Positions 5,956 through 48,246 of a stretch of 64,000 nucleotides of DNA are shown in pieces. Where the stretch lies: contig JAKOGI010002758.1 of NCBI GenBank assembly GCA_029747015.1, forward strand, positions 16,001 through 80,000, in the 5' to 3' direction. This DNA is from Carnegiea gigantea. Lineage: Eukaryota > Streptophyta > Magnoliopsida > Caryophyllales > Cactaceae. Positions within the stretch are counted from its first letter, which is position 1. Each line of letters starts with the position of its first letter. The position numbers and the translations under genes were made by a program. The notes beneath the pieces are model-generated. The model ran no database searches. It was not told the DNA's origin and was given only the letters and a program-made list of their open reading frames with translations.

Positions 5956-7713
5956 TTACTAGGAGTGAGAGATAGAGAAGCAATTACCTGTAGAAAGCGT
6001 GGGATAAGGGGAAGGGATGATTAAGTAACTTAATTATCAAATTTTAAAAATTAGAAAAAACATAATTCTTTCAACGGTTAAGATCGATATGATATATTAG
6101 TATATTATGTGAATGGTGATGATGAAGTTGATTTCGTAAAATTAAGAGGAACAAAGTATTGACGACATGTTTTTTATATATTACAAAAAAAATAATATTA
6201 GATTAGATTAGACGTCTCTTCAACTATGCTGCGGAGACCTATCAAATACATTGCTGGGTTTTGATTTGGGGATAGAATTCAGGTGTAGTATTGCTCAGTC
6301 ATCAGTGACATTGAATTGTGTCAAATTTGGGGCTAACCACAGGCTAGCATGATGACTCTGTCGCCCAATTTAAGCATATTAAATGAGGACTTGTCACAAG
6401 TTACTCTCTTGAGATTAATTGTTTTTGTTTAAAAAAAAAATGCGCCATTTTTTATGGTCTTATTACTTTCTTTCTAGGTCTTGTAATGAGTAATTGATAC
6501 TTAGTGCCTGCAATATAAGCACTAATAAATAAACTAGTCTAAGAGTATGTAAAAATAATAATTTATTACTCTGAGGTATCATGGGATGAATAATTTAGTT
6601 CTTTTCTTGACAGTAATTTCTAAAAATTATGTATTAAACCTCTGAAAATGAGATCCTTTTATCATTTTATTATCTTTCTGTTGGTTCTTTAAAGAAATTA
6701 TGCAGATACTTTGTGTATCTTGTAACGACTGTAATTGTACTATTATTGTTATTGAAACTTAATTGAAATTGTTGTTGGTACCATATATACAACTCAAAAC
6801 TTTTGACAACAAAAAAAAATAGTCAAATACAAAAGATATCTTATTTTGGTTCAAAAATAATTTATAAAATGTCAAAATATATAGGCTTCAGATCTTTTTT
6901 TTAGAGACTTTAGAACTTCTTATCAAGAAAATAATTAAATTATTCATCGTTAGATATCTCAGGGTGTTAAATTACTATTTTCACAAATCTCTGAACTATT
7001 TTATGTGACAACAATTATAAATATCAGAGTATTAGATGTTCATACAGGTACATAGTGAGAGAAACAAATAAGCGTGATATAATATACCAGCAAAATTAGA
7101 AAATCTACACAAAAAAGTATACTACATGGCTAAGAAAAAAATACAAATAATGAAAGGGACAATGTAACTTCAATGGTTTGTTTTTGTCTCAAAAAAATAA
7201 AAATAAAGAAAATACCTAAACTCTTGTTCATTCTCAAAATCTAATTAGGCTCGAATGCTATTACTATAAACCTTTAAGGAACACTTTATGATACTATATA
7301 CTTTTCTATTTTATAAAATAAAATTATATAAATATAATTTAATATCATTTAATGTACTTTGTTTTTAAAACCTTAGGCAAATGTATCATTTCTACAAAAA
7401 AAACTCTTTTAAAAAAGCCTTTATGAAATGACTTTTTCAAAAAGAGTTGTTTGGCTACCTGATTGAATTATCAAAACAACTAAAACACTCCTAAACAACT
7501 CTTTTTTCTCAAAAAAATGTTATTACCAAACACTTACTACATTAAATTACAAAATTAAGTAGTTTTTTTTTCATTTTCCATTTCCTTTTGAGGGAGGATG
7601 TTGCCGGTTAGTAAGCAAGTCTTTTGAAGTTCACTATTATGAATTGTTTATAATCAGATTTGAATAGTTGGTGCGTACGTATTACCAATAGCTACAGCTA
7701 AAGCATTATAAAC
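5956..7713. other. AT-rich intergenic DNA with a small hairpin
   Basis: No gene recognised. About 7438-7507 holds inverted arms of roughly 15 bp (AAAGAGTTGTTT and AAACAACTCTTT) around a 40-bp loop, possibly a MITE remnant. The rest is AT-rich spacer. Confidence 0.5.
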
Positions 7714-7868
7714 TATTAGCGAATCCAAATCTTTTGGAGATATATTTCGTTTCCTTACGTATTTTTGACTGTACTAACTTAATTGAGTATGCAAATCCTT
7801 GTACTTACCAATTTTTTGCACTTACCATGTTTGTGTACCACTTTGTACATATATATTCTACTGCTTAA
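7714..7868 (+). repeat. Truncated Copia LTR, plus orientation
   Basis: Starts TATTAGCGAATCC and matches the first ~155 bases of the LTR at 36004-36205. It stops where the opposite-orientation LTR begins at 7869, so the two form a near-palindrome with arms of about 150 bp. Confidence 0.85.
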
Positions 7869-8081
7869 TGATAGTTTTAGAGCTGGGAGAGAATCAATTC
7901 TCAGTGCTTTCCTTACCACTGGTACTTTTATTAAGCAGTGGAATATATATGTCCAAAGTGGTACACAAACATGGTAAGTACAAGAAATTGGTAAGTACAA
8001 GGATTTCCATACTTAATTAAATTAGTACAGTAAAAAATACATAAGGAAACGAAATATATCTCCAAAAGGGATCGGCTAATA
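7869..8081 (-). repeat. 3' LTR of Copia A
   Basis: On the minus strand this LTR starts TATTAG (ancestral TGTTAG) at 8081, directly after a purine-rich tract (CTTGAGGGGGAG), and ends ..ACTATCA at 7869. The length, 213 bp, matches the 202-bp LTR at 36004-36205. The purine tract plus LTR order fixes the 3' end of the element. Confidence 0.88.
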
Positions 8082-9517
8082 CTCCCCCTCAAGTTGGAGC
8101 GTACAGATGAGAAACGCCCAACTTTCCTAGGAAATAGTGAAATTGAGACCGACTGAGAGCTTCGGTAAAAATATCGGCAAGCTATTCATGAGTAGGAGTA
8201 TATTGAGGAGTAAGAACACCAAAGAGAATATGTTCGTGGACAAAATGACAATCAACCTCGATATGCTTGGTACGTTCGTGGAAGACTGGGTTGTTGGCAA
8301 TATGCAAGGTGGCTTGATTGTTACAGTACAAGCGAGCTGTAGAAACGGGAATGCCTGAAAACAGCAGCAACTGGCGTAGCCAGACTAGTTCACTCGTGGC
8401 ATTAGCCATAGCACGATATTCAGCTTCAGCAGATGACCTAGACATAGTAACTTGTTTCTTAGTCTTCCACGCAATAGGTGCCTTCCCTAATTTAACAGGA
8501 TAACCTGTGATAGAACGCCGAGTCATGGGACAGTTGGCCCAATCGGAGTCACAGAAAACATGTAAGTTAAGGGGATTACTAGCTGGCAATAAGATCCCTT
8601 GCCCTAGAAAAGATTTTAGGTAGCAGAGGATGCATAAAGCGGCGTCCCAATGTCCTTGATGAGGATCTTATAAACTGGCTAAAGATGTGGACAGAGTACA
8701 TTATATCGGGCCTGGTAATCGTGAGATGAAGCAGGCGACCAATGAGACGTCGATATGAAGAGGCATCAACTAGAGGGGCACCTGAATTGGTCGACAACTT
8801 AAGATTTTTTTTCCATAGGACGGGGACATGGTTTAGCACCAAGCATCCTGGTTTCACTAAGAATGTCAAGAGCATATATCTGTTGGCATAAAAATAGCCC
8901 TTCTTGGGATCAAGCCACTTCAATACCCAAAAAATATTTCAGGGGGCCCAAATCTTTAAGTTTAAAAAAGTGTTGTAAATAGCTCTTGAACTCACAATAG
9001 TGATCATGACTATTACAAGCTAGGACCATATCATCAACATAGATAAGCAGGGCCAAGAATATGTTATCGTGGTGATAGATAAACAGAGAGTGATCCCAAG
9101 GGGATTGGACAAATCCATGCCATAGTAAAGCCGAAGCTAACTTGAAATACCATTGTCGAGGTGCTTGTCGAAGCCCATACAGAGATTTCTTTAACTTGCA
9201 TACCAAATTCGGTTGAGGAGGATGAAAACCCGATGAAAGCTTCATATAGAGATCTTCATAGAGATCACCATGCAGGAAGGCATTATGCGCATTCATTTGA
9301 TGGAGTTTCCATCCTTTGGAAGCAGCAACAGTTAGTAAAGCGCGAACAGTGGTCATCTTTGCTACAGGGGCAAAAGTTTTATGAAAATCCTCACCTTTGA
9401 CTTGATTATTACCCAAAACAACCAAATGCACTTTGTGTCGTTCAATAGATCCATCTGCATGATACTTGGTCTTGTACACCCATTTGCATCCAAGCGCCTT
9501 TTTGTTGGGAGGTAAAG
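8082..9517 (-). pseudogene. Copia A, RT and RNase H part (degenerate)
   Basis: Ty1/Copia reverse transcriptase and RNase H on the minus strand, in three pieces. About 9517-8910 has RT with GWKLHQMNAHNAFLHG, LYGLRQAPRQW and YVDDMVL. About 8923-8579 is the RT C-terminal part with DASSYRRLIGRLLHL. 8589-8182 is RNase H with CDSDWANC, SRSSAEAEYRAMA and KHIEVDCHFV. The breaks are frameshifts. The sequence stops abruptly at 9517 in the motif before RT and resumes at 16698, so this is one element split by the pararetroviral insertion. Copia B is its closest relative in the window and supplies the uninterrupted junction. Confidence 0.92.
9512..9517. repeat. Left flanking direct repeat of the pararetroviral insertion
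   Basis: GTAAAG at 9512-9517 recurs at 16698-16703. Comparison with Copia B (around 21758-21775), which carries this stretch once, shows that the motif was duplicated around the insertion. Confidence 0.8.
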
Positions 9518-10123
9518 TTGGAAAATTTTATACTTTGGTACCTCCAGTTTTAGCGTATTCACACGGTAGACCAGGTTTTGAAAATCTTTACATTTTGGTA
9601 TCTCTAGTTTTGGTATAACTGACTTTCTGGTACTTTTTATTATTATTTTAGCCCTTGAACTTTTAGAAATTGTAGAAAAGCCCCTGAAAAAGGTTAGCTA
9701 TGCAAATAAGCTATCTCTAGTGTTTTTTTCACGAAATATGCTTGATTAAACTTCTTATAATAACTTTAATGGTACTAGTTATCATAATCTACTAATTATA
9801 TCTTACGTATTATACTTTTTGTGGTTATAGGCCTATCATGCTTAGCAAATATAATTAAAACTTAATTAGAGAGTTTTGACCGTTACCTGAACTTCGTCGG
9901 TGCTGCACCCTAGCGTTCCTTTAACTTTCAATTTACAGATATTGCTAATCTCAACCACACCTTTCTTAGATCAAGCACAGTACAGATCTATTTCGTTTCC
10001 TACTTCAGATCATAGTCACTAATTAAGTTTTATATTTTAAAGAATAGTGAGACTTTGGTCAAGAAACTATAACATTTAAGACATAAGGTTCGATTGGATA
10101 ACATTCCCTACTAGAAAACTTCT
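9518..10123 (-). other. Pararetroviral leader/intergenic DNA
   Basis: Noncoding on the minus strand, downstream of the poly(A) signal. It contains an imperfect direct repeat of about 50 bp near 9528-9620 (TTTGGTACCTCCAGTTTT versus TTTGGTATCTCTAGTTTT). Confidence 0.5.
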
Positions 10124-10129
10124 TTTATT
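10124..10129 (-). terminator. Poly(A) signal AATAAA of the pararetroviral transcript
   Basis: AATAAA on the minus strand lies about 160 nt downstream of the TATA box. In caulimovirids a poly(A) signal shortly after the transcription start yields a terminally redundant genomic RNA; the spacing fits. Confidence 0.6.
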
Positions 10130-10285
10130 GAAAGCTTAAAAGTGGGTATATTACAATAGAAATTTAAGAGGGACTTAAGCTAAAGTCATTAGAGATGTTT
10201 GCTCATAGAAAAATGGAGAATCCTGACTTCTCTTTTGCTTAAGAATGCTTAAATGACTGTGTCCCTTCTCAGCACTCAACCTCTC

Positions 10286-10293
10286 CTTTTATA
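10286..10293 (-). promoter_or_regulatory. TATA box of the pararetroviral genomic promoter
   Basis: TATAAAAG on the minus strand sits in a CTCT..GGAGAGG context, in the intergenic region after the last open frame and upstream of the poly(A) signal. That is where the genomic (35S-like) promoter lies in this family. Confidence 0.65.
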
Positions 10294-10323
10294 GAGAGTT
10301 AAGGATACATAGGATGCCCTAAT

Positions 10324-10382
10324 AGCTACAGTACACAATGATTTTCACATGGCTATAGTACACGCTGATGGCTATAGTACAC
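10324..10382 (-). promoter_or_regulatory. Three direct repeats upstream of the pararetroviral TATA box
   Basis: The minus-strand motif GTGTACTATAGCC occurs at 10370-10382 and 10351-10363, with a variant GTGTACTGTAGCT at 10324-10336. They lie 30-90 bases upstream of the TATA box, a plausible enhancer position. No match to a named element is claimed. Confidence 0.5.
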
Positions 10383-10451
10383 TGCTTTATTTTACAAACT
10401 AGACACTTGTCAAAATAGTACAATAATGGTGCAGTAACTTTTCAGAGCTTT

Positions 10452-11096
10452 TTAATGATGACAAGAATGGTCATTATTATTGAGATTCTGCATGCCTTCA
10501 TCTCCAATTATATCTTCCAGACCATCATTATCTGAATAATCATCAAAACCTTCATCTAATTGAAGATGTTCTGGGTCCCATTTCTTAAATAACTCAAGAA
10601 GATATTTCTTTTCTTTTTCTGATAAGAATTTTCCAGCTCCAATGTTAAAGAGATAATCAAAAATATCTTCAGACACTGCTCCTTCTACCTTCATGTACTC
10701 TTTGAACTCATTATCATAGGCACAAATAGTGTTTCCACAATGCATTATCATTTTTTCTTTTTCAATTAATGCCCAACATTGATGATAAATATTGAAAAAT
10801 CCAATGGTTGTTGCTAAAGCAGATTCAGTAACTAATTCTCGTTGTTCAGGAACCTATTCTTGTTATTGATCATCGAGATCATCGTAATCAACAATCTTAA
10901 TAAGATACTGGGCTAGTTTGGCTTTTTCATTTTTATATTCAATTAATGCGCTATACACTTTCAAATTTAGGCATCTTCAAAGTGGAATTTTTGTTGGACC
11001 ATCAAGAGATGTAAGAATACAAAGGATTCTTCGGAACATGCATTGCTGAAATTTTATTAGCCTTGAGAAAAATAGGAACTTGGGATCTGAGATTTC
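10452..11096 (-). pseudogene. Unrecognised 3'-terminal pararetroviral reading frame
   Basis: An open stretch of 99 codons (10751-10452) extends upstream with a few stops. It is acidic near the C-terminus (DDYSDNDGLEDIIGDE) with a preceding EKEKKYLLELFKKW helix-like segment. It lies after RNase H and before the promoter, the position of the transactivator/inclusion-body gene in several caulimovirid genera. I see no diagnostic motif, so this is position-based inference only. Confidence 0.4.
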
Positions 11097-11600
11097 TATA
11101 AAGTAAAGTACCATCTCGTATTCTCAGGCTTTAATGATGGGGTCATTTGGAGAGATTGAATTTGCTGAAAAACTAACACTACCAACTTCAGACTTATTAG
11201 GAAAGTAGATAGTTGTATCCCAAGACTCCCAAATATCATAGGAATAATGATGATAAAAGTCGATGCAGGCTGCACACCACTCATTGAATATTTTTCTTGA
11301 ACATGAGAACTTATTTTTTCTTGGATAACATAGGAAAATCTAAGGTAATTAACTTTAACTCTAAAAAGAAAAATCTTTGGGCTATTAGGTAGGCAGTAGA
11401 TAGTAGACTAAAAGGTGATATACTTTTTGTGTGGAATTCTAGGTTATCAATAAGGACTCTATTAGAAGGCGAAACCTGTTCTAGCAGGAATGGAATTTCA
11501 TTAAGGATTTCATCCTTTTTTGGCAAGAGGTTGGCTTTGATAATCACCATTGGCGAGTTCTCAAGTTAAACTATCAGCCAGAGAGTTCTTCGATCCCTAT
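11096..11600 (-). pseudogene. Decayed pararetroviral sequence after RNase H
   Basis: Short open pieces in different frames (11550-11311, 11284-11096). A motif like LADSLT..ELA near 11580-11560 looks like the end of RNase H. Beyond it no domain is recognised. Confidence 0.4.
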
Positions 11601-11639
11601 ATATGTTCAATAGAGAAGGAGAACTGGTTCAGCCATAAT

Positions 11640-12797
11640 TGCCAACACAGGAGTCGCCCTTATGCTTGTATATTTGATAAGTTCTGTTTCACAAAACCAA
11701 GTATTTCTTTGCAATCAGTTCGAATAAGAAAAGGTTTTGGGGCTAAAAAGATTAAGAACTTTTCAATTCCCCTTATGACTGCAAGGATTTCTTTTTCCAT
11801 TGTGGGATTGTTGCATTCTACCTTATTAAAATTTCCACTGCAATATTTGCAAAGTTGTTCTCCTTCTTTGATTTTGAGTACCGCACTCCAGCGCTCATTG
11901 CTGGCATTTGTTTCAAGAATTAAGTCATCTCCCTCATTAGGTAAATCAAGAACAGGAAGATTTTTACACATTTTTTTAAAATTCTGGACAATCTTTGAAT
12001 CGTTAGTGGTCCATGTCTACATCACATCTTTCTTAAGTTTTTGTTGTAATGGCTTTCTTATTTTAGCCAAATCTTTAATGAAATCTGAAGCATAGCTAAG
12101 GCATCCAAGAAATCTTTCTAATTGCTTTCTATCTTCAATCTTTTCAGAAAATTTTTTTATTTTTTCCAAAATATGTTTTTATAGAATGATCTGTCCAACC
12201 TTTATCTCTAGACCTAAAAACTCAACTTCTTGTTCAGCATAAATGCACTTGTTCTTAGCACGTATAATGCAATGGTCAATGCATCTTTTGGTGACAGCCA
12301 AGACATCATCTTTGTTCTGTTCTATGGTTTTGAAAAAGACAAGGATATCATCAATGTAAACTAAACAACAACGATTAAGGTCTTTGAAGATATTATCCAT
12401 TCTTCTCTGGAATGTTTGGGGTGCTTTTTTAAGACCAAATGGCATTACTATCCATTCAGAATGTCCTTGTAGGGTACTAAATGCAGTTAAAGAAATGCTT
12501 TCCTCATCCATTTTTTTCTGCGCTTTTGTAATCCATTTTCGAGAACCAAGAGGCTCCTTGAATTTTGTTGAAAAGGACTATTTTATTAGGAATATAGTAG
12601 CCATCAAAGACAGTATTATCGTTAAACTTTTTGTAGTTGATTATCATTCTAACTTTTTCTCTTTTTTCTTCTGCATGATTTCTTACCATGAAAGCGGGAC
12701 AGGTGTGAGAACTCTTGCTGTTTCTGATTAATCCTTTATCCAGAAGTTTTTTGATTTGTTTATCAAACTCTTGGATGTCCTGGTGTGTATACACCAT
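11640..12797 (-). pseudogene. Pararetroviral reverse transcriptase and RNase H (broken)
   Basis: RT begins in the piece 12797-12504, with CPAFMVRNHAEEKREK and MIINYKKFNDNT. It shifts frame near 12510 into 12511-12179, with MPFGLKKAPQTFQRRMD and the catalytic YIDDILVF. RNase H follows at about 12100-11660, with LETNASNERWSAVL (the catalytic D of the usual D-A-S core appears as N), MEKEILAVIRGIEKF and FLIRTDCKEI. The AEKR-type linker in motif 2 and the FGLKKAPQTFQR block mark it as caulimovirid RT rather than Gypsy. Frameshifts and stops at several points make it non-functional. No integrase follows. Confidence 0.85.
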
Positions 12798-12976
12798 TTG
12801 TTTAACTCGGATAATAGTGTTGGGATTTAATAAAGTGATTTTAGCGAATGTTTTATCTTTATCCTAGAATTTTAGAGGATTATTAGAATAGAATTCTTTG
12901 CATAATTTTCTTGTTGTTCTACAATCTGTTCTTTAATAGATAACTCAAGTAATGAGATTGTCAGTACTATTTCTCG

Positions 12977-13683
12977 TTATGCAGGCATTACCTTCTCACT
13001 GTACTGGCTGCATGTAAATTTAATTTTCTGATAAGTGTAAGCCTTACTTAATTTTTCTATAGGAACTGAGTGACCATTAATTATAAATATTATTTGGTTT
13101 ATGGTTTGGGTGCATGGAGAATATAATCTTTGAAAATTATTTCCAATAATTATATCATGAGAGGGTTGATCAGTAGCCCATAGAACCGGTATCATACATT
13201 GAACTCCTCCTAATTCTATGGACAACCTTTCTATAGCTTCATTATGGCTCATAATATTATTATCAGCTATCCTTACTTGTAAAGAATTCTTAGCTTTTTT
13301 CACATAAAATCTGAAAATAATGTTCTTTTTCCAAAGCATACAGAACAACCACTATTTATGTAGGCACATAACTCATATGTATTCTATTCCTGTAAACATA
13401 CCTTTATTGGGATATAGATGCTATTAGGGTTTATATTCGTAGCTTCATAGCATATCTCCATAGTCATATTTTTGACTAATTCATCCTCATAGATGGGTTC
13501 ACTAACCATTCTAGTTTTATACCCAATGAGTTTTCTTTCTAGACTTATACTTCGATCTATACTGGATCTTGCAGTTTCAAAATTTATTTTATTCATTTCA
13601 CTGATCATGCTAATTGTATCATCTTCTTTAATATCTTCTTTAGCTAATGAAGGTCCTTCTTCCCAATCTGATCTTGTGCTCAT
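12977..13683 (-). pseudogene. Pararetroviral aspartic protease region (catalytic Asp lost)
   Basis: Minus-strand frame 13683-13384 is acidic; after one stop it runs into AYINSGCSVCFGK at about 13365-13327. The retropepsin D-T/S-G triad reads Asn-Ser-Gly here; the Asn codon is AAT at 13354-13356, one G-to-A change from GAT. After a second break, 13348-12977 continues with the flap-like and C-terminal parts, including HDIIIGNNFQRLYSP, the hydrophobic-G-N-x-F motif typical of the family. The catalytic change would inactivate the enzyme even without the stops. Confidence 0.72.
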
Positions 13684-13699
13684 GCTCCTTAATAGTTGG

Positions 13700-14250
13700 G
13701 GTTTAATGGTCGTTTTACCCTCTCATCAATTTTTGTTATATTTTTTTTTATTGATCTTTGTAGGGTTAACAAAGCTAGATATCCATGAACGATCGATTTT
13801 TATCTCTAGAGGATTGGACTTAATCCTCTAGATCTTTTGCATAGGGGTAGGACTTTCAAATTTTTTTGCCTCTATCATTATTACCTTAGTCTTTAGGTCT
13901 ATTGTATTATCTAATTTATAGATAATTTTTCAAAATACCCTTAAAGGATATCCTCCTCTTTTTATGTCCATCCCAACTATTTTTATCTTAAGAGATAGGA
14001 AGTTTTTAGGAAATTCATTCTTTAAACTCACATAATATCCAGGTCGATAATTGAATCCTATTGATCCATTACATAAATTAGTCTTAATCCCTGTGATAAT
14101 TTGATTATTAAATTTGGTATGCCTAGTATCACATAGTAAAGCGTAAAGATCAATATCTTTGCCATAATATTGTAATAGAGTAATTTGAACTTGGACACTT
14201 CCGACATGGATATACCTATACCTTCTATCTTTGTTATGCTTAAGGATATT
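13700..14250 (-). pseudogene. Pararetroviral 30K-type movement protein (broken)
   Basis: In the frame starting near 14240 on the minus strand I read YRYIHVGSVQVQIT at 14220-14179, then a conserved CDTR block, TGIKTNLCNGSIGFNYRP and GYYVSLKNEFPK. These are the successive blocks of the caulimovirid 30K movement protein: I-H-x-G-x-V-Q, the D-x-R motif, and the N-L..G..F..P block. Such proteins dilate plasmodesmata. A stop interrupts it near 13930. The frame is the same as the coat region upstream, separated by two TAA codons near 14250-14272. Confidence 0.75.
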
Positions 14251-14271
14251 TTTTTAATTAATTAGATTTTT

Positions 14272-15991
14272 TCAATTAATTAGATTAACTTCCACAACGT
14301 CATACTCACAATCCTTTATCTCAAGATCTCCTTCCATCATTTCACATACGTACTTGCTTTTTAATTGAAAGATGAATTTTTTATAGATCATGTCTTTTTG
14401 GATTATGGGAAGAACCCAGTCTCTTTTGACTTCTTCATGATCACTGTCTACAACAAATTCTTCTCCTTGAAGATCACCAAGACTAATCGAACTACTTTCC
14501 ATCATATGACTTGTTTCTTCATAATCACTTTCTTCATATTCATTGTCCAATATAATTTCAACAATTCCTTTGTTATTACTTAGGGCTATATCTAATGCCT
14601 CATCTTCACTAAGCTCAATGTAATCTAGGCTTCCCAAGGTTTCAATAAGTTTGTCATTCTTCTGATTTTTACATTCATTAGCATAATGCCCTACTTCTCC
14701 GCATGTCCAACATTTGCAGTTATTTTTCCCTGTAGGGCAATAAGCAGCTTTTCTAAAAAATCTATGTTTTTTAGGACTTGATTTATTATAATATTTTCTT
14801 CTATATTTCTCGCCCCTTTGCTTGTTAAAGCTCTTTGTCTTATAGAATTTTCTTTTCCTTCTTTTTTTAGGTTCCTTTCCCCATTGATGGGATGAATCCT
14901 AGTAAGTTAAGAACAGCTTCTTAATATTCTTTTGCTTTTAAATATCAAGACACTTATCATTAACCCATTTTCTTAAATAAGAAATTCTTGAACTAAGGGT
15001 ATCAACAACATTTATTCGTTCAAGCCATGCCATGTATTTTTCATTAATTATGGAATTCATTGGATATGGAAATTTGTCATAGAACATATCAAGATTAGTT
15101 TCATTATGCCCAATTTTATAATAATATTGACTGAATTCAGCAATGTAATTTTCTAGGTATCTCATATCCTATAATTCTATGTTGTTAATCTTTCTTTGCC
15201 ATTCTCTTACTTTTTCTTCAGAATCAAGTTTAGCTCCGATGAATTTGGTTTCGATTTCTTTGCACAAATTTCTGAACATAGCAGCAGGTGTTTCTATCAT
15301 TCTTAATGTATTTTTACCGTCTTCACTTAATGAATCATACCAGTCAGCTACAGTGGCAGAAAAACTATGTTCGATATAAGTTAGGAAGTTTGACGCAGTC
15401 CAGGTAGTATTTAAGTTCAAGACACTATTCATTCCTCTTTTCCAATGCTCAAATATTTCTTCTCTATTACGGACTCCATCAATGTTTAGGATGTATCCTA
15501 TTTGGCTAATTGGGGTAAGTTCAATTTCTTCAAAAGTCGTGGTTTTCTTGGGATAAACCCGAAGAAAAATTACTTGTTCATCCTGTTAGAACGTACCTAG
15601 GTCTTAAGAAATGAGTATTTCTTCTAGAAGATTCACCAAATTCTTCAGACTTAGGAACGACATTGTTAACTAGATTAGTCTCTGTTTCATATAAATTGAT
15701 CTCTTCTCCAATCTCATTGATCTCGTTTTCAACAGTCATTTTACCATATTTCTTATCCAGTTTTCTCTTAACTTCTTTTAATGGTAATACATTGAGATCT
15801 TTTAATTTAATCAGATTTATCTGCTAATATATTTATACTTCTAGTTGGACATTATTGGTCTCTTCATTATTATCAGACAAAACGTCATGTTTATCACTAA
15901 TTGCGTCCATCATCTTGTTTAATTCTTCTAGGTTTTGTTCCTTCTCAAACATATTCTGTAGTTGATTAAGAGTATATTGCTTATACTCCAT
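14272..15991 (-). pseudogene. Pararetroviral coat protein with CCHC zinc knuckle (broken)
   Basis: A minus-strand ATG at 15991-15989 opens a short frame with a charged helix-like start (MEYKQYTLNQLQNMF). After stops, the coat core appears in pieces 15432-15169 (FLTYIEHSFSATVADWYDSL) and 15165-14938 (MRYLENYIAEFSQYYYKIG). A Lys/Arg-rich stretch follows near 14880-14760. A CCHC knuckle, C-W-T-C-G-E-V-G-H-Y-A-N-E-C, occupies 14671-14712. An acidic tail (14637-14272) closes the region. Core, basic stretch, knuckle and acidic tail in this order are typical of caulimovirid coat proteins. Several frameshifts and stops are present. Confidence 0.78.
14671..14712 (-). other. CCHC zinc-knuckle motif
   Basis: Exact spacing C-x2-C-x4-H-x4-C within the coat region; all four ligands are intact. 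Confidence 0.9.
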
Positions 15992-16034
15992 CTTCTTCTT
16001 CTTTTTCTGCTTTTTCAGCTGATTTTTCTACCAT

Positions 16035-16358
16035 TTATTTTTGAATTTTTTTCTCGTGCAAAGAAAATGAAATCTTGTTTTTTAGGTTTTGAAAAGGATA
16101 TTTATGTTGAAAAGAGGTACTAATATTGAAAGTAGATTTTCCGCTACATCTAACTTCATTAACCAAAGAAAGGTGAATTACAGATATTTGTTTCTTAAAC
16201 TCCTTGACTTCGGCCTTAATTTTAACTAATTCAACTTTTAATTGTAAAACTATATCAGCGATATAGTTTAATTGAGGTTCTATTAGAGAAATGTCTTTTG
16301 GAGAGTGAACAATATGTGAATGATTTGGCCCACGGCAAGCAAGTGATAATTCTAGCAT
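16035..16358 (-). pseudogene. First pararetroviral open frame, helix-rich, 107 codons
   Basis: This is the first open stretch after the primer-binding site. The middle has heptad-like hydrophobic spacing with Lys/Glu (LQLKVELVKIKAEVKEFKKQ), suggesting a coiled coil, as seen in small 5' proteins of several caulimovirids. No specific family is recognised, and it may equally be the N-terminal part of the coat polyprotein. Confidence 0.5.
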
Positions 16359-16425
16359 TAATCATAGTTAATTAGCTTAATTAGTCATTAAGTAGCTTAA
16401 TTATCTTAATTATTTTTTGTCACGT

Positions 16426-16438
16426 GGCTCTGATACTA
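16426..16438 (-). promoter_or_regulatory. Primer-binding site for initiator tRNA-Met (pararetrovirus)
   Basis: On the minus strand TAGTATCAGAGCC matches the plant initiator tRNA-Met complement TGGTATCAGAGCC at 12 of 13 positions. It lies upstream of the first open frame, as in caulimovirids. Confidence 0.82.
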
Positions 16439-16697
16439 GATGAAAGAGGATGTCGAGCTCTACTTGTGAGAAAAAAACCACATACACAATTTTAAATTTT
16501 TCGAAAACAAGTTTTTAAGGATTTGGACTAAATTACAAATATAAAAAGTTTAGGGATTTATAAATAAATGTGAATAGTAATCTGTCCCCCAAATATAAAT
16601 GGTGCAATAACTCAATGGACCTGATTGTGACTTTTTCAAAAAGCTGGTCCTACAAATGAATACACCAAAGTTCGACGAACCTAAATGTAAATTACCC
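16439..16697 (-). other. End of the insertion upstream of the primer site
   Basis: Noncoding AT-rich sequence between the primer site and the junction with Copia A. Its outer end (GGGTAATTTACATTTAGG on the minus strand) does not repeat the other end of the insertion, so there is no LTR. Confidence 0.5.
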
Positions 16698-18498
16698 GTA
16701 AAGTCGCAAATTCCTATGTTTGATTATCTTCAAGAGCAGAAATTTTGGCTGCCATTGCATCGCGCCATTTAGGGTCATGAATAGCTTGGGAGAAAGAACT
16801 GGGCTTATCGCTAGAAAGCGGCCAAAAAACCATGATGCTTAGGAGAGAAGCGATCATATGAAATAAAGTGAGAAATGGGGTGATACGTACCCAAAGAGCC
16901 AGCATGGAGCGGGGATGAGGTGGGATGGTCAATGGCGTGACAAATATAATCCTTCAGATGTGCGGGAGGTCTTTTTGCTCGTTGTGGCCGAGTGAACTCG
17001 GGTCCTATTTCAAGCTTGGTACCTTGTTTAATGAATTGCTCCAAGTTTGGGCTTGATGTGGACAGCGTATCAGAGCCAGCCATAGCATGCTGATCGTCAC
17101 GGCCAGCAACATTAACTTGGGCCGACCCGTCAGGTGTGCATGGAGAAGTTGTGGGACAAGGTGACTCCTTGTTTGTACGGTCTGATTGGGCCGCCCTATC
17201 TGAGCCCAGTCCAGCCGAAACAAGCAGCCAATCTTTGGCAGAAACCAAGTCATGCATAGGGAAAAAAGGCATGTTGGGTTGGGGGCCGGTCACATTGGGC
17301 CCCATTGGGTTAGGCAATTGAGAGGTTGGTTCAGCACACGGAAAAATTGCCGTATAAAAATGAACATCCCGAGACACGAACAATTTTTTTGTCTCCAAAT
17401 TTTATAACCATCACCCCTTTTGACCTTGAGGATACCCTAAAAATAAACACTTGGTGGCTCTTGGATCAAATTTATCACGGGACTTGTTATGAGTATGTGC
17501 ATAACACAGACACCCAATGACCCGTAAATGAGTATAGCTCGGAGCAACTCCAAATAAAGCTTCATAACGCGTTTTAAAGTTCAGTAATTTTGCTGGAGTT
17601 CTATTGATGAGGTAAGCAGCCGTCAACACACACTCGCCCCAAAATTTTAAAGGGAGAGAAGCTTGAAATCGTAAGGCCCGAGCAACATTAAAGATGTGTC
17701 GATTTTTCCTTTCAACACAACTGTTTTGTTATGGTATATCAATACAAGATGTCTCGTGCAGGATTCCATTTTTTGCAAAGAAAATTGGTAGTGGGCCCTT
17801 GGTGAATTCAGTCCAGTTATTGCTATGCACCTTTTAAACCTGTGTATCAAACTGGGATTTGACTATAGAGCAAAAACTAATTAACTTGTCATATGCTTCT
17901 GTCTTATCTTTTAGTAGGCATACCCAAACAGCACGACTGTAATCATCCACAGCACACAAAAAATAATAACATCCACTGAGACTATGAGTATGATATGGTC
18001 CCTATAAATCACAGTGTATTAAGGAAAAGGGGCGTTGAGCTTGTGTAGTACTAAGAGAAAACGGACTCCGCGTTTGCTTAGCGCGATGACAAACATCACA
18101 ACATTCATCTAAGCTCTTATTCAACTTGAAATCAAATTAGTCGACAAAGAAGACAAACTACCCAAAGAAGGATGCCCAAGACGTTGATGACAAAGATCGC
18201 AAACTCTAAGGTTAGTTGCTGAAAAAACCTTTCCTCCCGCACCAAACTTGAGATAATACGCCCCATTCCTCTGTTCACTCGCTCCAATCAGCGTTTTCGA
18301 GATGAGGTCCTGAATAAGACAACACTGAGCACTATAAACAATAATACAATTCTTATCATAAGTGAGTTACTGAACAAAAATAAGATTGCATTTAAACTCC
18401 GGTAAATAGAGCACGTTTTTTAAAACTAAATCATGCACAAGGTTAACCTTCCCTGCTTGTTCGACTTTCACAACAACGACTTTAAGGGGAGCCCCCAC
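16698..18498 (-). pseudogene. Copia A, integrase part, 5'-truncated (degenerate)
   Basis: Minus-strand continuation of Copia A. 16698-16800 is the linker before RT, 17398-16811 the variable Pro/Ser-rich region, and 17629-17411 the integrase C-terminal part ([25 protein letters not shown]). 17850-17647 is degraded integrase core, and about 18250-18100 the GAG-pre-integrase/HHCC area. It ends at about 18498 within the protease-to-integrase stretch, equivalent to about 19976 of Copia B; gag and the protease active site are missing. Many stops are present. The truncation abuts TRIM-like DNA that belongs to the 5' side of Copia B, so A and B lie head to head. Confidence 0.88.
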
Positions 18499-18576
18499 AT
18501 TGATTTATTGCGTAAGGTAGGGGAGCCTTTGTAGCATCCAAGCTTTAAGCCCAAAGGGTATTCGCATGAGAGGGCA
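18499..18576 (+). repeat. TRIM-like internal sequence
   Basis: Matches the short internal region of the TRIM at 39182-39303: AGCCCCCA.., a GGAGCCTTTGTAGCAT block (GGAGTCTTTGTAGCAT there), then TTCGCATGAG just before the terminal repeat (TTCATGTGAG there). Confidence 0.6.
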
Positions 18577-18647
18577 TGTTAGAGGATAAATTTATTCCTG
18601 GCCTTCAACTATCTTCTTAAGCTTTTGGTTGAGTTGGTATTTGAACA
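18577..18647 (+). repeat. 71-bp TRIM-like terminal repeat at the 5' end of Copia B
   Basis: TGTTAGAGG..TTGAACA starts TG and ends CA, and matches the 73- and 72-bp terminal repeats at 39095-39168 and 39304-39375. It lies directly before a tRNA-Met primer site, where the 5' LTR of Copia B should be. It is unrelated to that element's 202-bp 3' LTR. Confidence 0.75.
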
Positions 18648-18660
18648 TGGTATCAGAGCC
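18648..18660 (+). promoter_or_regulatory. Primer-binding site for initiator tRNA-Met (Copia B)
   Basis: TGGTATCAGAGCC, a perfect 13-base complement to plant initiator tRNA-Met, 30 bases upstream of the gag ATG. Confidence 0.9.
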
Positions 18661-18689
18661 AAAACACCGATTAACTCAGTCTTTCAATC

Positions 18690-19715
18690 ATGAATGGAGA
18701 GGACAAAAACAACACAAACAATTTAACACCTCTATTCAACATGAATGACCCCCAATCTCCTTATTACCTATGCAGTGCAGATCATCCCGGTAATATTATC
18801 TCACCTATGATCCTCAATGGAGAAAATTATGCGAACTGGAGTAGAATTGTGACGAACACATTGAAATCTAAGAATAAATTTTTCTTTGTTAACGGATCGT
18901 TAGCAAATCCAGAGAACAACAACCCAGAAGGTCATGCCTGGGAAAAGTGCAATTCAATGGTCATTGCGTGGTTACACAACGTGATAGATAAAACTTTACA
19001 CAGCTTGGATGCATACGCAGAGAAGGCAAGCGAGATTTGGATAGACTTGAAAGAATGTTATTCATAGGGTAGCGAAATCAGGGTGCATCAACTCAAAAGG
19101 GAAATCACACTCACAACACAGGACAATCTGAATGTCACTGAATACTTTACTAAACTCAAGGAATTGTGGGATGAGTTAGGAGCTCACCAACAAATCCCAA
19201 TTTACAGCTACTTAGAGGATTTTAGCATGAGCAAGTTTCAGGAGAGGGAGAAAGTTCATCAGCTTCTCTTGGACCTTGACTCGGATCAATTCGGGATAAT
19301 CAGATCGAAAATTTTTTCTATGGAGCCCCTACCGAACTTCAATAAAGTGTACTCCATGGTCTTGAGAAAAGAGAGACAACAGAAGATAAGCAAAGGGATA
19401 GAGAACCATACTGTTGTGGAAGCAGCGGCCTTCAAGGCCTTAGCCACCAGTAGATCCAGACCATTGATTCGCCCAAAATGCACTCACTGCCAGAAAATCG
19501 GACATGAGAGGCACCAATGCTATGAGCTCATTGGATATCCACCCAATTCACAGCAAAGGCGGATGAATCAACCACATCAAGGGCTAAATCGAGTAACGGT
19601 GGCCGGAGGGAGTTGGAACAGACCCGACGGCGCTGTCCAGTCATCAGTCGTTGTAGCGGGCTTTGCTAGAAGAAAGGAGGAGGCAAAAATTGGCGAAGGA
19701 ATGGAGGGTCACTGA
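18690..19715 (+). pseudogene. Copia B gag (one in-frame TAG)
   Basis: Gag polyprotein of a Ty1/Copia element. It starts at ATG 18690, reads SPYYLCSADHPGN and GENYANWSRIVTN, and is stopped by TAG at 19065-19067. It continues in the same frame with VHQLKREI, LNVTEYFTKLKELWDEL and LLLDLDSDQFGIIRSKI. The CCHC knuckle reads C-T-H-C-Q-K-I-G-H-E-R-H-Q-C (about 19478-19519). The frame stays open to 19715. Apart from the single TAG this gag is well preserved, better than the pol region after it. Confidence 0.88.
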
Positions 19716-19859
19716 GTTATGGCCTTGTCTAGAGAAAGTTATGGCAGGGATAATGAGGTAGAGAGACTTGTAGGTTTTACTCAATCTTAAATTGACACCA
19801 TATATGCTATCTTTAAAGAAAAGAAGAACAAAGAAAGAGTAAGTGGTAAGAAATTGCCG

Positions 19860-20190
19860 TTTACATCGCTTTAGCGGATTTTGGACTCTGGGGCATCTTA
19901 TCATATGACTTCCAACATTGCTGTTATTAATGATCTTCGTGATTTACGGCAACCAATATATACTTTGATACCTAGGGAGTTGTCGTTGAAGTTAAACAAG
20001 CACGGATGGTTAACCTTGGGCACGATTTAGTTTTAAAAAACGTCCTCTATTTGCCAGAGTTAAATGCAATCTTATTTCTGTTCAACAACTTACTTATGAT
20101 AAGAATTGTATTATTATTTATGGTGCTCAGTATTGTCTTATTCAGGACCTTACCTCGAAAGCGCTGATTGGAGCGGGTGAACAGAGGAAT
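19860..20190 (+). pseudogene. Copia B protease (broken)
   Basis: The retropepsin active site reads LDSGASYHMTSN starting near 19877, with the D-S-G triad intact. The remainder runs to the GAG-pre-integrase region with frameshifts and stops (for example near 20030). Confidence 0.75.
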
Positions 20191-20193
20191 GGG

Positions 20194-21138
20194 GTGTATT
20201 ATCTCAAGTTTGGTGCAGGAGGAGAGGTTTTTTCGGCGACCAACCTTGGAGATTGCGATCTTTGGCATCAACGTCTTGGGCATCCTTCTTTGGGTAGTTT
20301 GTCTTCTTTGTCGACTAATTTTGGTTTCAAGTTGAATAAGAGCTTAAATGAATGCTGTGATGTTTGTCATTGTGCTAAGCAAACATGGAGTCTGTTTTCT
20401 CTTAGTAATCCAAAAGCTCACGCCCCTTGTCCTTAATACACTGTAATTTAAGGGGACCATATCATACTTGTAGTCTCAGTGGATGTTATTATTTTTCGTG
20501 TGTTGTGGATGATTACAGTCGTGCTGTTTGGGTATACCTGCTAAAAGATAAGACAGAAACATATGACAAGCTAATTAGTTTTTGCTCTACGGTCAAAACC
20601 CAGTTTTATACACAGGTTCAAAAGGTGCATAGTGATAATTGGACTAAATTCACCAAAGGGCCCACAACCAATTTTCTTTGCAAAAAATGAAATACTGCAT
20701 GAGACATCTTGTGTTGACACACCACAACAAAACGGTCGTGTTGAAAGGAAAAATCGACACATCCTCAATGTTGCTTGGGCCGTATGGTTTCAACCTTCTC
20801 TCCCGTTAAAATTTTGGGATGAGTGTGTGTTGGCGGCTGCTTACCTCATCAATAGAACTCTAACAAAATTACTGAACTTTAAACCGCCTTATGAAGCTTT
20901 ATTTGAAGTTGCACCTAGCTGTACTCATTTACGGGTCTTTGGGTGTCTATGTTATGCACGTACTCATAACAAGTCTTGTGATAAATATGATCCAAGAGCC
21001 ACCAAGTGTTTGTTTTTAGGGTATCCTCAAGGTAAAAACGGGTGGTTGTTATATAATTTGGAGATAAAAAAATTGTTCGTGTCTCGAGATGTTCATTTTT
21101 ATGAGGCAATTTTTCCATGTGCTGAACCAACCTCTTAA
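20194..21138 (+). pseudogene. Copia B integrase (broken)
   Basis: The zinc-binding region has LWHQRLGHPS and CDVCHCAK (20194-20436). The core has VVDDYSRAVWVYLL (first D), VHSDN (second D) and TPQQNGRVERKNRH (catalytic E). The C-terminal part has [16 protein letters not shown] and [13 protein letters not shown]. The frame changes near 20436 and again near 20690. The order protease, integrase, RT, RNase H is the Copia order. Confidence 0.88.
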
Positions 21139-21735
21139 TTGCCTGACCCAATGGGGCCCAATGTGACCAACCACCAGCCCAACATGCCTTTTACCCCTAT
21201 AGATGACCTTGTTTGTGCTGAAGGTTGCTCGCCTGTTTCGGCTGGACAGGGCCCGGATATGGTGGCCCAATCAGATCCTACAGACGGGGAGTCACTTTAT
21301 CCCACAGCTTCTCCATACACACCGGATGGGTCGGCCCAAGTTGATGTTGCAGGCCGCGAGGCTTAGCATGCTATGGCCGGCTCTGATTCGATGTCTATAG
21401 TAAGCCCAAACTTGGAACAATTCACTGAATAAAGTACTAGGGTTAAAATAGGACCTGAGTCCACTTGACCACAACGAGCAAAACGACCTTCCGCACATCT
21501 GATGGATTATATTTGTCATGCCATTGACCACTCCACCTCATCCCTACTCCATGCTAGCTCTTCGGGTACGTCTCACTGCTTTTCTCACTTCATTTCACAT
21601 GATCGCTTCTCTCCTAAGCTTCGTGGTTTTTTAGCCGCTATAACTTCTAACGATGAGCCCGGGTCTTTCTCTCAAGCTATTCGTGACCCTAAGTGGCGCG
21701 ATGCAATGGCAACCGAAATTTCTGCGCTTGAAGAT
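21139..21735 (+). pseudogene. Copia B variable region between integrase and RT
   Basis: Pro/Ser/Thr-rich, fast-diverging linker normal for Copia pol. It has a recognisable HAIDHSTSSLLHASS stretch and ends with ISALEDNQT before a stop at 21746-21748. Confidence 0.7.
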
Positions 21736-22370
21736 AATCAAACATAGGAATTTGCGGCTTTACCTCCCAACAAAAATGCACTTAGATGCAAATAGGTGTA
21801 GAAGACCAAGGATCATGTAGATGGATCCATTGAACGACATAAAGCGCGTTTGGTTGGTTTGGGTAATAATCAAGTCGAATGCGAGGATTTTCATAAAACT
21901 TTTTCCCCTGTAGCAAAAATGACCGCTGTTCGCACTTTACTGACTGTTGCCACTTCCAAAGCATGGGAACTTCATCAAATGGATGTGCATAATGCCTTCT
22001 TGCATGGTGATCTCTATGAAGATCTCTATATGAAGCCTCCACCGGGTTTTCATCCTCCACAACTGAATTTGGTATGCAAGTTAAAGAAATCTCTATATGA
22101 GCTTCGTCAAGCACCTCGACAATGGTATTTCATGTTAGCTTCGACTTTACTATGGTATGGATTTGTCCAATCCCCTTTGGATCACTCTCTGTTTATATAT
22201 CACCGGGATAACATATTCTTGGCCGTGCTTATCTATGTTGATGATATGGTCCTGATTGGTAATAGTCATGATCACTGTTGTGAGTTCAAGAGCTATTTAC
22301 AACACTTTTCTAAACTTAAAAATTTGGGCCCCCTGAAATATGTTTTGGGTATTGAAGTGGCTCGATCCTA
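21736..22370 (+). pseudogene. Copia B reverse transcriptase (broken)
   Basis: RT with AWELHQMDVHNAFLHG, LYELRQAPRQWYF and the catalytic YVDDMVLIGN. The frame 21850-22371 is open for 173 codons; stops lie upstream at about 21746 and 21792, and a stop at 22369 separates it from the connection domain. It provides the uninterrupted sequence across the site where Copia A was hit by the pararetroviral insertion. Confidence 0.9.
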
Positions 22371-23165
22371 AGAAGGGATACTTTTATGCCAACGAAAATA
22401 TGCTCCTGACATTCTTAGTGAAATCGGGATGCTTGGTGTTAAACCATGTCCATATCCTATGGAACAAAATCTTAAGTTGTCGATCGATTCAAGTGCCCTT
22501 CTAGTTGATGCCCCTTCATATCGACGTTTCGTTGGTTGCCTGCTTTATCTCACAATTACCGGGCCTGATATAATGTACTCTATCCATGTTCTTAGCTAGT
22601 TTATGCAAGATCCTCATCAAGGACATTGAGACACCACTTTACGCATCCTCCACTACCTAAAATCTTCTCCAGGGTAAGGGCGCTTGCTACCAGCTAGTAA
22701 TCCTCTTGACTTCCATGTTTACTGTGACTCCAATTGGGCCAGCTGTACCATAACTCGATATTCTATCATGGGTTATCTTATTAAATTGGGGAAGGCATCT
22801 AGTGCGTGGAAGACCAAGAAACAAGTTACCGTGTCTAGGTCATCTGCTGAAACTGAATATCGTGCTATGGCTAATGCCATTAGTGAACTAGTTTGGCTGT
22901 GCCAGTTGCTGCTGTTTTTGGGCATTCCCATTTCTATAGCTCGCTCGTATTGTGACAATCAAGCCGTCTTGCATATTGCCAACAACCCAGTCTTCTAAAA
23001 ACGTACCAAGCATATTGAGGTTGATTGTCATTTTGTCCACAAACATATTCTCTCTAGTGCTCTTACGTCTCAGTGTACTCCTGCTCATGAACAACTTGCC
23101 GATACTATTACCAAAGCTCTCAGTCGGTCTCAATTCCGCTATCTCCTAGGTAAGTTGGGCATTTC
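22371..23165 (+). pseudogene. Copia B RNase H (broken by stops, then by LARD1)
   Basis: The connection and RNase H region has SYRRFVGCLLYLT, HVYCDSNWASC, VSRSSAETEYRAMANA and KHIEVDCHFVHKH. Stops lie near 22597, 22627 and 22996. The sequence is cut at 23165 in GGGC-ATTTC and resumes at 35970 with GTTTCTCATCTGC, so LARD1 interrupts the last bases of pol. Confidence 0.88.
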
Positions 23166-24484
23166 TGTTAGTAAAAGCCGCAAGCGTACAGTTTATCGTT
23201 GTATGATTTACGGGTATCGTCTTCAGGGAGGGTTGTGAAATTGGATTACCACCAATTCTAAACTAAAGTAAAACTAAATACTAAATTAACCAAATTTCAT
23301 GATTAGAATTTCCACAAATTAATAGATTAAATAAATAAAATTTAATTTTGTAATTGTTAACCATATACTTTACAAAGCCACTTGCCAAAATAAGAAACAC
23401 CAATCTACAAATAATTAGAGCCACTAACACTTATCTGTAATGATTCTTTAAACTTGATAAACGAGACAAAGGAAAGGAAACACAGGCATGAAACAGAGCA
23501 TCGAACCCAAAATCAACATAGCACAAATCCAAAACTTAGGACAATCCAGAACTGAAATCAAGTTGAAACTCAACAAATTGATTACACCGCAATAGGGAGG
23601 AACACTGAACGTCAAAGGCATCAAACTACTAACTCCAATTAGGCCAAGCTCAAACAATATGAAACAAATAAAAATGAAGGCAAAACTGAATTTGGAAGAA
23701 AACTAAAGAAAACTAAACCTTTAAATTTAACTTGTTATCCTCTACTATCTACTATCTAATCACCATCCTAATCTGCTTTGATACTAATCTCCCCGCCCTC
23801 CTACTCTGTTTTTAGCCCCCTCAAAACGTAGCTTCCAGCCCCAAGAACGCCGTCCACATCTCCCAATTAATTGCCTTCATTAACTCCTTTGTAACTGTTC
23901 AACCGATGATGGACAAGCCGGAGAAGAGAGAGAAGAGTGGGCAACAGTTATGGCAGAGGAGAAGTTGAAGAGTCTGCTTCTCTATTCGTGGCCATGTTCT
24001 TTTCGGGTATGGGATTGTGGGTTGAGGAATGAGGAAGAAGAAGAGGAGATGAAGGGGGATGGACTGGAGATCAAGTGTGTCACACGTGTCTTACTTAAGT
24101 GAGTTGGGAGAAGGGCAGAAAGTTGGACCGGGGAAATGAGGGAAAGGGACTGGGCCCGGCCCAAAGAGAAAAAAAAAGGAAAAGAAGAGAGGGAGGAAGG
24201 GGGAGGTCTGGCGGGATGTTGGGTCGAGGAGGAAAAAGGGGAAGAGACTGGGCTGGCCTTATTCTTAGGCACGTGACTGGGCCTATTTCCTTCTTTGTTT
24301 TTTCCCCTCTTTGCTCTTGTCTGATCCAAAAACACTTTCTTCCAACCTTTTTATCCAATTTATTCAAATCTCCATAATGTCTAAAAAAACAATTAAAACA
24401 TATTAAAAATCTAATTAACTAGTTTATTACGAGCAAATATTAGGTAATAAAAGGGTAAGAAATATCATAATTTATGGTTTGACA
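23166..24484 (-). repeat. LARD1 left LTR (3' end of the element)
   Basis: 1319 bp. Open frames inside it on either strand (for example around 24000-24370) are Pro/Ser-rich or Arg-rich and appear in all three LTR copies without conserved frames, so they are not genes. Just to its right, the minus-strand sequence GACGAGCAAAACTTAGGT..CGGG resembles the conserved tract before the 3' LTR of Tat/Athila elements. Confidence 0.88.
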
Positions 24485-25033
24485 AATACCCGCATACCTA
24501 AGTTTTGCTCGTCATCGAGTAAAACAAACTAAAAATCCTAAAAAAGAAAATAAAACAAAATCCTAACTCACTTTTGTAGGAATCACGGTTGTGCTTAGCA
24601 TGTGTAACAAGCCCTTTAAACCCCTAGATTACCCCTAGTGGACGAGTAAGGTCGCGTGAGGGTTTGCAGAAGGTGTATCCATAAAATCCGTAAAAGAAAA
24701 TATAAACAGAAACTCGAAAATTTTTTTTTTCCCCAAAAATATGTACAAAACTGGGGAAAGACATATGCACGTTCTAATCAACTAAATCACCCATATAGCA
24801 AAGCTATAGTCATGCATATAAACAAAATGTACTCATCAAGGCTCTCTACCTCATGGATGATATCGAAGCACTAACGTTTCACCCCACTGTGCGTCAAGAC
24901 CTTGAATCCATCCCAGTGCTCGTGTGCAAGTGTCTCATCATCCTAGGGCTTACGCTAACCAAAATCAAACTCAATCCCATTTGACTGACACAAATTTCAT
25001 TATTGACTCATTAACATAGGAAGCAAGCTTTCC

Positions 25034-25112
25034 CAGTAGCAGTATTGCCTCAAAGGGAACACCCAGTAGCACGTGCCTCAAAGTGTAACACCCAATAGCG
25101 CATGCCTCAAAG
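25034..25112. repeat. Short tandem repeat in the LARD1 internal region
   Basis: Three copies of a unit of about 26-32 bp containing CCAGTAGCA..TGCCTCAAAG. The same array sits at about 30299-30378 in the second internal copy. Confidence 0.7.
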
Positions 25113-25655
25113 GAATACTTGTCATTCCAAATTTCTATTTGTTCCCTTTTTTTTCTTTGTTCTTTTTTCTTTCATTTTCATCATTTTTTTTTCCTTAGAA
25201 TGCCAATAAAAACCAAAGTAATCATGTCAAAGACAAGTGGGAGAGCCAATCATGAAAGACTAAGACCTTAATGATGATAGTATAAATAAGGATTGGATTA
25301 CACATCAATAATGAACAATCGAGGTTAGAATTAGGGCTAAGAATGGTACACTAAGAACATAGACCTATCGTGCACATCATGCTTATATACATGATAACAA
25401 TCAAAGCACAGGGGATTTAAGATGATTAGAAAAGCACGAAGCCTCCCCAAAAACAAAACAAAAATCTTTTTGGATTTTCAAAGTTTTCAATTTTTAAAAA
25501 TTTTTAAAAATTTTTCAAAGTTTCCCCACCCCACACCTAAATCTCACAGTGTTCTCATTGGTAGTGGAAAGAAATATTAAATACAAATTAAACCCTAAAA
25601 TGAAGACAAATATAAACAAGACTCAAAATTAAAGAAAAGGGCATGACTCGAAATC

Positions 25656-26454: not shown

Positions 26455-26849
26455 ATTTAATTCACTAGTATTCTCAAGGTCTTTACCCTCCTCAAACTCA
26501 CGAGAATGATGAAAAGGGGCGGCTGGGTCAGAAGGAACTAGGACATCCTCAGTGATGCCCTTAGGTGAGCTAGTATGGGGTGTAAGGTCTTATGATAGAG
26601 ATGTAGAGAGGCTACTCTCTTGTTCTAAACTGGACGAAGGTATGTCATCATTCAAGTTAGGCCTAGCAAGATAAGAGGGTTCAAAATCATCATGAAGACT
26701 AACTTAAAGTTTAGGAGATTCTAAACTAGAGTCAGGCTCTTGTAAGTTAATATCCTCCCTACTACGATTAAAACAGTGAGAATATTCAGCAATTCTCTTT
26801 TTCATTCCTCTATCATTTTATTCGTCAATTTATTTATCTTCTTTTCAAT

Positions 26850-28389: not shown

Positions 28390-28407
28390 TCCCCGGCAAC
28401 GGCGCCA
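28390..28407 (-). promoter_or_regulatory. tRNA-Asp primer-binding site (LARD1, middle)
   Basis: On the minus strand TGGCGCCGTTGCCGGGGA is a full 18-base complement to the 3' end of plant tRNA-Asp, six bases from the LTR. It is intact, unlike the site beside the right LTR. Confidence 0.9.
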
Positions 28408-28413
28408 AAAACT

Positions 28414-33686: not shown

Positions 33687-33692
33687 AAAACT

Positions 33693-48235: not shown

Positions 48236-48246
48236 ACTTGGATATA

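Follow-up and report, generated by a model that had tools for sequence, protein, structure and literature searches.

A caulimovirid-derived unit with imperfect terminal inverted repeats and 9-bp target-site duplications in the genome of Carnegiea gigantea

Endogenous caulimovirids (florendoviruses) are described, in the available text of the relevant papers (PMC4241990, PMC10377300, PMC13308828), as high in copy number, without an integrase and with a tRNA-Met primer binding site; they are mostly fragmented, often lie beside (TA)n and show short gains or losses at their empty sites, and their entry into plant chromosomes is called speculative. Their boundaries have also been called hard to define, in the accessible parts of PMC2774946 and PMC10741241. 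Here we describe a 7.2-kb insertion in a 64,000-nucleotide stretch of Carnegiea gigantea DNA (contig JAKOGI010002758.1, positions 16,001 to 80,000; hereafter the window). It shares the coat, movement protein, A3 protease, reverse transcriptase and RNase H domains, the primer site, the lack of an integrase and the high copy number with these elements, but unlike them it belongs to a family of whole units with fixed inverted-repeat ends and 9-bp duplications. The insert is a discrete unit with fixed ends, imperfect terminal inverted repeats, a 9-bp target duplication and many copies in the genome. On balance, we lean towards reading it as a decayed copy of a caulimovirid lineage that carried Mutator-type terminal inverted repeats and was inserted by a host transposase acting in trans.

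Two other systems are close to this unit. Mutator-like elements (MULEs) and Pack-MULEs combine 9-bp duplications with terminal inverted repeats of considerable length, about 215 bp in maize Mu, as given in the portions available of PMC2774946 and PMC10741241. The insert fits the Mutator-like range of target duplication, about 9 bp (7-12), whereas its repeats are only about 65% alike and what they enclose is a complete virus with traces of earlier protein constraint instead of a transposase or gene fragments. In Teratorn, a fusion of piggyBac with a fish herpesvirus, a whole virus genome likewise lies within DNA-transposon terminal repeats and spreads as one unit, and the virus and transposon parts diverge together (PMC10175614, available text). 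However, Teratorn is a herpesvirus of about 180 kb with its own transposase gene according to the same text, whereas the insert is a 7.2-kb reverse-transcribing virus with no transposase found in the copy and with its ends at the presumed RNA leader. Among the titles, abstract openings and passages met in the open-licence literature of PubMed Central, none describes a caulimovirid whose ends are inverted repeats of transposon type or whose target duplication is constant.

The initial annotation of the window had placed a pararetroviral insertion at 9518-16697 inside a Copia element, flanked by the 6-bp direct repeat GTAAAG, with a related Copia B giving the empty site. The insertion and the empty site are both confirmed. 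The caulimovirid domains lie in a foreign 7.2-kb block splitting the RVT_2 (reverse transcriptase) open reading frame (ORF) of Copia A. Copia B, which matches in inverted orientation at 19979-23166, has no interruption at the homologous point: the alignment of the left flank ends at 21758 and that of the right flank begins at 21763, so that the two share 6 bases, GTAAAG. The right edge at 16697 also holds, whereas the left edge moves to 9521, where it is placed by the tip common to the other copies, GAAAATTTT..., giving an insert of 7,177 bp (9521-16697). The duplication is not 6 bp but 9 bp, GTAAAGTTG / GTAAAGTCG, in the register of the other copies. The single mismatch between the two would fit a C-to-T decay, given GTAAAGCCG in Copia B. 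The G+C content is 31.8% in the insert and 42% in the Copia flanks. The features of the insertion site are as follows.

9512..9520, plus strand: left target-site duplication GTAAAGTTG, an 8/9 match to the right copy
9521..9730, plus strand: left terminal inverted repeat, with two copies of one motif about 60 bp apart (at about 9521 and 9580)
16470..16697, minus strand: right terminal inverted repeat, from the inverted alignment of the tips and recurrence at other loci
16698..16706, plus strand: right target-site duplication GTAAAGTCG, from the register of the family ends
21755..21763, minus strand: empty site GTAAAGCCG in the related inverted Copia B, from the Copia B alignment

Copia A and Copia B together form a large inverted repeat (16698-21763) with arms 87-92% complementary, which could form a hairpin. 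A compact inverted repeat adjoins Copia A at 7731-8068, with two 145-base arms that are 92% complementary and separated by 48 bases.

The initial annotation had seen neither a long terminal repeat (LTR) nor a clear terminal inverted repeat at the outermost bases. We also saw no LTR, as the outer 150 bases score 19 when compared directly and 48 when inverted, but the tips do align in inverted orientation, about 65% identical over about 200 bp and better than nearly all shuffles. At lengths of 70 and 100 bases, none of 1,000 dinucleotide shuffles attained the end-anchored inverted score; at 40 bases 7/1,000 did, and 2/2,000 shuffles attained the local inverted-repeat score. Among 23 units of the family, the best local end-to-end alignments show 63-83% identity over 48 to about 215 aligned bases. 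Folded as RNA one at a time, the single end arms were no better than shuffles (z of -0.38 and 0.38), giving no support for a structured leader.

The ends were then followed through one genome of 1.13 Gb, with matches ranked by similarity. Among the best 40 of 3,431 first-look candidates for the left end, all 40 scored matches start at query base 1-6; among the best 40 of 1,020 candidates for the right end, 38 reach query base 254-258 of 258, the remaining two stopping at bases 249 and 202 (the window copy is included in both sets). When up to 3 mismatches were allowed, a 30-base pattern of the left tip gave 173 matches, a part of which lie at the second motif, about 60 bp further in; for the right tip, a 21-base pattern allowing 1 mismatch at most gave 75. 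The reversed-pattern controls gave 0 for both. Correctly oriented pairing with a left tip, among those listed (100 of the 173 plus the scored left-end matches), was found for 38/75 right tips. The tip-to-tip length is 7,052-7,246 bp in 22/38 pairs, with 4 pairs shorter (6,214-6,981) and 12 longer (7,888-75,133), the long ones probably being nested insertions or false pairs. No wrong-side or wrong-orientation pair was present within 20 kb. The adjacent 200 bp of virus matched at 29/29 right-end loci examined, and the next pieces also at 28/29. Recurrence of the ends, which the initial annotation had named as the mark of a mobile unit, is thus borne out by fixed end positions at many loci.

The duplication recurs with the ends. 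From 43 attempted end pairs, 22 were usable, making 23 units with the window copy. In a fixed 9-bp register, the flank identity over the 23 units is 0.768, compared with a null mean of 0.345 and a null maximum of 0.459 (500 shuffles). The 10-bp register reaches 0.457 (null maximum 0.409), and the registers of 4-8 and 11-13 bp lie inside the null. At the fixed 9-bp register, 14/23 units match at 8 or 9 of 9 positions and 17/23 at 7 or more; when shifts of up to 2 bases are allowed, a match of at least 8/9 is found in 18/23 units but in only 5/506 mismatched pairs. The 9-bp size and the inverted repeats point to a Mutator-type insertion rather than to an LTR-element integrase.

The contents of the insert are those of a caulimovirid. 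In a Pfam scan, the coat, movement, A3 protease, reverse transcriptase (RT) and RNase H domains are collinear and all on the minus strand, the order from the right being primer site, coat, zinc knuckle, movement protein, A3 protease, RT, RNase H and a last coding block. The reading frames are broken, the longest ORF fragment having 208 amino acids, and no transposase or integrase domain was found among the 30 ORFs of at least 55 amino acids that were scanned. The features are listed from right to left.

16427..16438, minus strand: tRNA-Met primer binding site TAGTATCAGAGC, matching the tRNA-Met 12-mer at 11/12 bases (1 mismatch); abuts the right terminal region
14941..15168, minus strand: caulimovirus coat conserved domain (PF22909, E=5e-6, barely above its cut-off)
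14275..14898, minus strand: zinc knuckle (PF00098, E=2e-5)
13933..14253, minus strand: viral movement protein domain (PF01107, E=8e-13)
12980..13351, minus strand: caulimovirus A3 protease domain (PF02160, E=1e-11)
12182..12577, minus strand: reverse transcriptase domain (PF00078, E=2e-18)
11663..12016, minus strand: RNase H domain (PF17919, E=5e-17; PF17917, E=3e-15)
10455..11407, minus strand: last coding block, with no Pfam match above cut-off, in the place of the caulimovirid transactivator
10286..10293, minus strand: candidate promoter-like (TATA) box TATAAAAG, picked by eye, pointing outward over the left end
10124..10129, minus strand: poly(A)-like signal AATAAA, from the sequence
9731..10123, minus strand: leader-like non-coding stretch from the poly(A) signal to the left end, with an 83% match to a sister locus

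A protein search gave 230 RT relatives, and among those listed (120 of the 230) no contig is longer than 2,436 bases; a scan of viral contigs with the RT alignment confirmed no relative. A similar primer binding site is given for another caulimovirid in the available text of PMC4241990, PMC10377300 and PMC13308828. The genome carries a very heavy load of the A3 protease family, with all of the best 150 of 4,930 first-look candidates above the curated cut-off and several matches in long open frames.

Differences between the copies were examined for protein constraint and for linkage between ends and genes. Transitions prevail among the shared changes, with 391 transitions and 69 transversions in the left 2 kb (9521-11590 and homologues) and 284 and 54 on the right, and the shared transitions show almost no linkage. 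They look like recurrent decay, in a pattern that fits heavy decay by cytosine methylation, and the transversion test was therefore relied on; it is a modest test, on copies picked by similarity. Transversions common to at least 4 copies fall on codon positions 1/2/3 as 21/13/43, with 22 synonymous (S) and 49 nonsynonymous (N) changes against 11.1 and 57.8 expected, a relative N/S of 0.43 (2.01 and 1.81 in the wrong frames); most of this excess is due to the first ORF and the coat-side one. Private transversions are neutral (227/227/205, relative N/S 0.95), and those in 2-3 copies are intermediate at 0.59 (wrong frames 0.91, 0.79). Pooled over all kinds of change in the test without a consensus, the relative N/S is 0.64 for shared and 0.95 for private changes (wrong frames 1.25 and 1.06), and a tree-based test with 38 clade-consistent columns pooled gave S/N of 13/25 and a relative N/S of 0.67. 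In two versions of the all-change test the RT was not significant and the other ORFs were mixed. The last coding block shows 1 S to 10 N among transversions, yet a strong excess when changes of all kinds are counted (0/400 simulations).

The ends are linked to the genes. Coding columns linked to end-repeat markers are distributed as 13/4/24 over the codon positions (p=0.0006), and those without such linkage as 8/9/19 (p=0.046). The linkage between end and coding markers has a mean r2 of 0.217 and 0.280, with null maxima of 0.095 and 0.127. The old differences are thus both constrained and linked to end markers. It seems that ends and genes evolved together, as a single unit, at a time when the proteins mattered, and a replicating virus that bore the repeats is a better fit to this than cargo carried along passively.

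To see whether other caulimovirids in this genome lack such ends, two protease loci without tips of the window's family were sampled. Both proved to be relatives of the window copy, with 83% identity in the leader and 76% in the primer-side ORF, one having a diverged left end and the other a diverged right end (the likeness of the outermost part of the latter was judged by eye). The sister right end stops at query base 276-293 in 39/39 other scored matches; the sister left end starts at 40-66 in 39/39, less sharply, with 33 at 53-66 and 6 at 40-47. Identities are 91-95% and 90-94% in the two end searches. For the sister groups, evidence on duplications comes from family 2 and from 3 units, two of which match, by eye, at 9/9 and the third, shifted by one base, at 8/9. 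Listed tips assign 38 of the best 150 protease loci to a group, 12 to the window's family, 12 to family 2 and 14 to family 3, with no locus in two groups; in all 38 the group's tip lies within 9 kb on the correct side, in 35 of them 3.4-3.9 kb away, and the wrong-orientation controls gave 0. The sister groups, so far as sampled, share the architecture of the window's unit.

The leader hairpin of known caulimovirids lies between the poly(A) signal and the primer site. We tentatively propose a virus lineage with two Mutator-type repeats tip to tip in this leader, which would serve both as leader hairpin and as site for a host transposase, insertion being a regular enzyme-driven step instead of a repair accident. 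In the viral circle the two repeats would lie in the RNA leader, with the poly(A) signal on one side and the primer binding site on the other. They would be recognised by a Mutator-type transposase of the host, acting in trans, which would open the circle at their junction; the opened circle would then be inserted with a 9-bp stagger. The promoter of the integrated form points off the left end, and a single copy should therefore not make full-length viral RNA; as the promoter lies downstream of the genes in the linear copy, such RNA should need a circle with the ends abutted. Functional replication may have carried on between insertions, which is suggested because the old differences show protein constraint. 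MULE transposase domains are plentiful in the genome (best 150 of 2,496 candidates scored).

Among three options, the initial annotation had named a transposase or integrase in trans and a virus carried inside another element, both of which find support here, and a filled-in break, which as repair is strongly disfavoured. The carried virus is the strongest rival, although we consider it unlikely: a Mutator-like transposon would have captured, or been invaded by, a caulimovirid opened at the primer-site nick, and the hybrid would have spread as cargo, like an oversized Pack-MULE. The 9-bp duplications and long repeats, standard for MULEs (PMC2774946, PMC10741241, available parts), agree with it, as does the absent or weak constraint in several ORFs, the RT piece among them. 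The primer binding site abutting the right terminal region would be expected of a molecule opened at that nick, but in one relative the match does not stop at the primer site and takes in the inner half of this region too, as if that half were viral leader. Such a hybrid also fits poorly with the old differences, which show a third-position excess and are linked to end-repeat markers, and with the diverged versions of the same ends in sister groups, and no short virus-free unit is present among the tips listed, the shortest tip-to-tip distance being 6,214 bp.

Insertion by a transposase from outside the Mutator superfamily, with a stagger of like size as in Merlin (8-9 bp), is improbable. The repeat tips were matched to no named MULE, which would allow it, but the flanks agree at 9 bp and stay within the null at 8 bp, the genome is rich in MULE transposase domains, and long repeats fit MULEs (PMC2774946, PMC10741241, accessible text). 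Very improbable is an integrase of Copia or another LTR element acting in trans, even though the insertion sits in a Copia element: no LTR was seen, the ends are mirror images, and when left-end loci on the plus strand were searched, the Copia left flank matched at the window's own locus and at no other. LTR-element integrases usually leave duplications of 4-6 bp, which the 9-bp register contradicts. In favour of such an integrase, the available text of PMC4241990, PMC10377300 and PMC13308828 gives a proposal that badnaviruses formed chimaeras with LTR elements. In the same papers (PMC4241990, PMC10377300, PMC13308828, available text), capture by repair is the prevailing view of how caulimovirids enter chromosomes. 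Here it would take linear viral DNA and a 6-bp repeat present by chance, and its probability is negligible, as it is contradicted by fixed ends at many sites and the constant 9-bp register.

Several points weigh against a caulimovirid lineage with Mutator-type repeats inserted by a host transposase. The terminal repeats are only about 65-70% alike, and in 6/23 units (L004, L012, L020, L097, L098, L100) the local repeat score does not exceed the best of 100 shuffles. Right tips without a partner among the left-tip matches listed make up 37/75, 21/43 attempted end pairs had no usable second end, and 5/23 units fall short of 8/9 even with shifts, one of them at 5/9 only. The opposite ends of the sister loci L116 and L117 were looked for at the predicted place and not found. 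No MULE or transposase is tied to these tips, the ends of the scored MULE domains not having been examined. The leader markers (9751-10120) show a mean r2 with coding markers of 0.087, below the null maximum of 0.100, on only 5 columns. In the all-change test without a consensus, constraint on shared changes appears in 4/7 ORFs and is absent in 3; the RT piece (13/14 fetched pieces plus the window, one partial) lacks significance in three versions of the test and has a weak excess in a fourth (10/400 simulations). The coat-side ORF shows signs of constraint in its private changes too (6/400 simulations), and the trees are poorly resolved, with 11/25 and 6/22 splits at 0.9 or higher.

The window holds further repeats outside the insert. 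An apparent tandem array of a long element spans 23197-36000, with two or three copies at a spacing of about 5.26 kb, mostly 76-95% alike, and two ORFs scanned within it gave no Pfam match. A second long direct duplication lies at 54755-60411 (spacing about 4.45 kb, 89-92% alike), and clusters of short tandem repeats with steps of, for example, 8, 10, 12 and 52 bases lie at 47904-53291. An open 308-amino-acid ORF with RT and RNase H at 61699-62622 (RVT_1, E=6e-19) belongs to a further retroelement.

A family with defined ends and a constant duplication makes the entry of caulimovirids into chromosomes directly testable, and the defined ends give endogenous viruses true boundaries for annotation and dating. 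If the proposal is true, fusion of virus and transposon would not stop at a fish herpesvirus but would include a reverse-transcribing virus of plants as well. Such a family also offers a reason, besides repeated accident, for the very high copy numbers of caulimovirids in some plant genomes.

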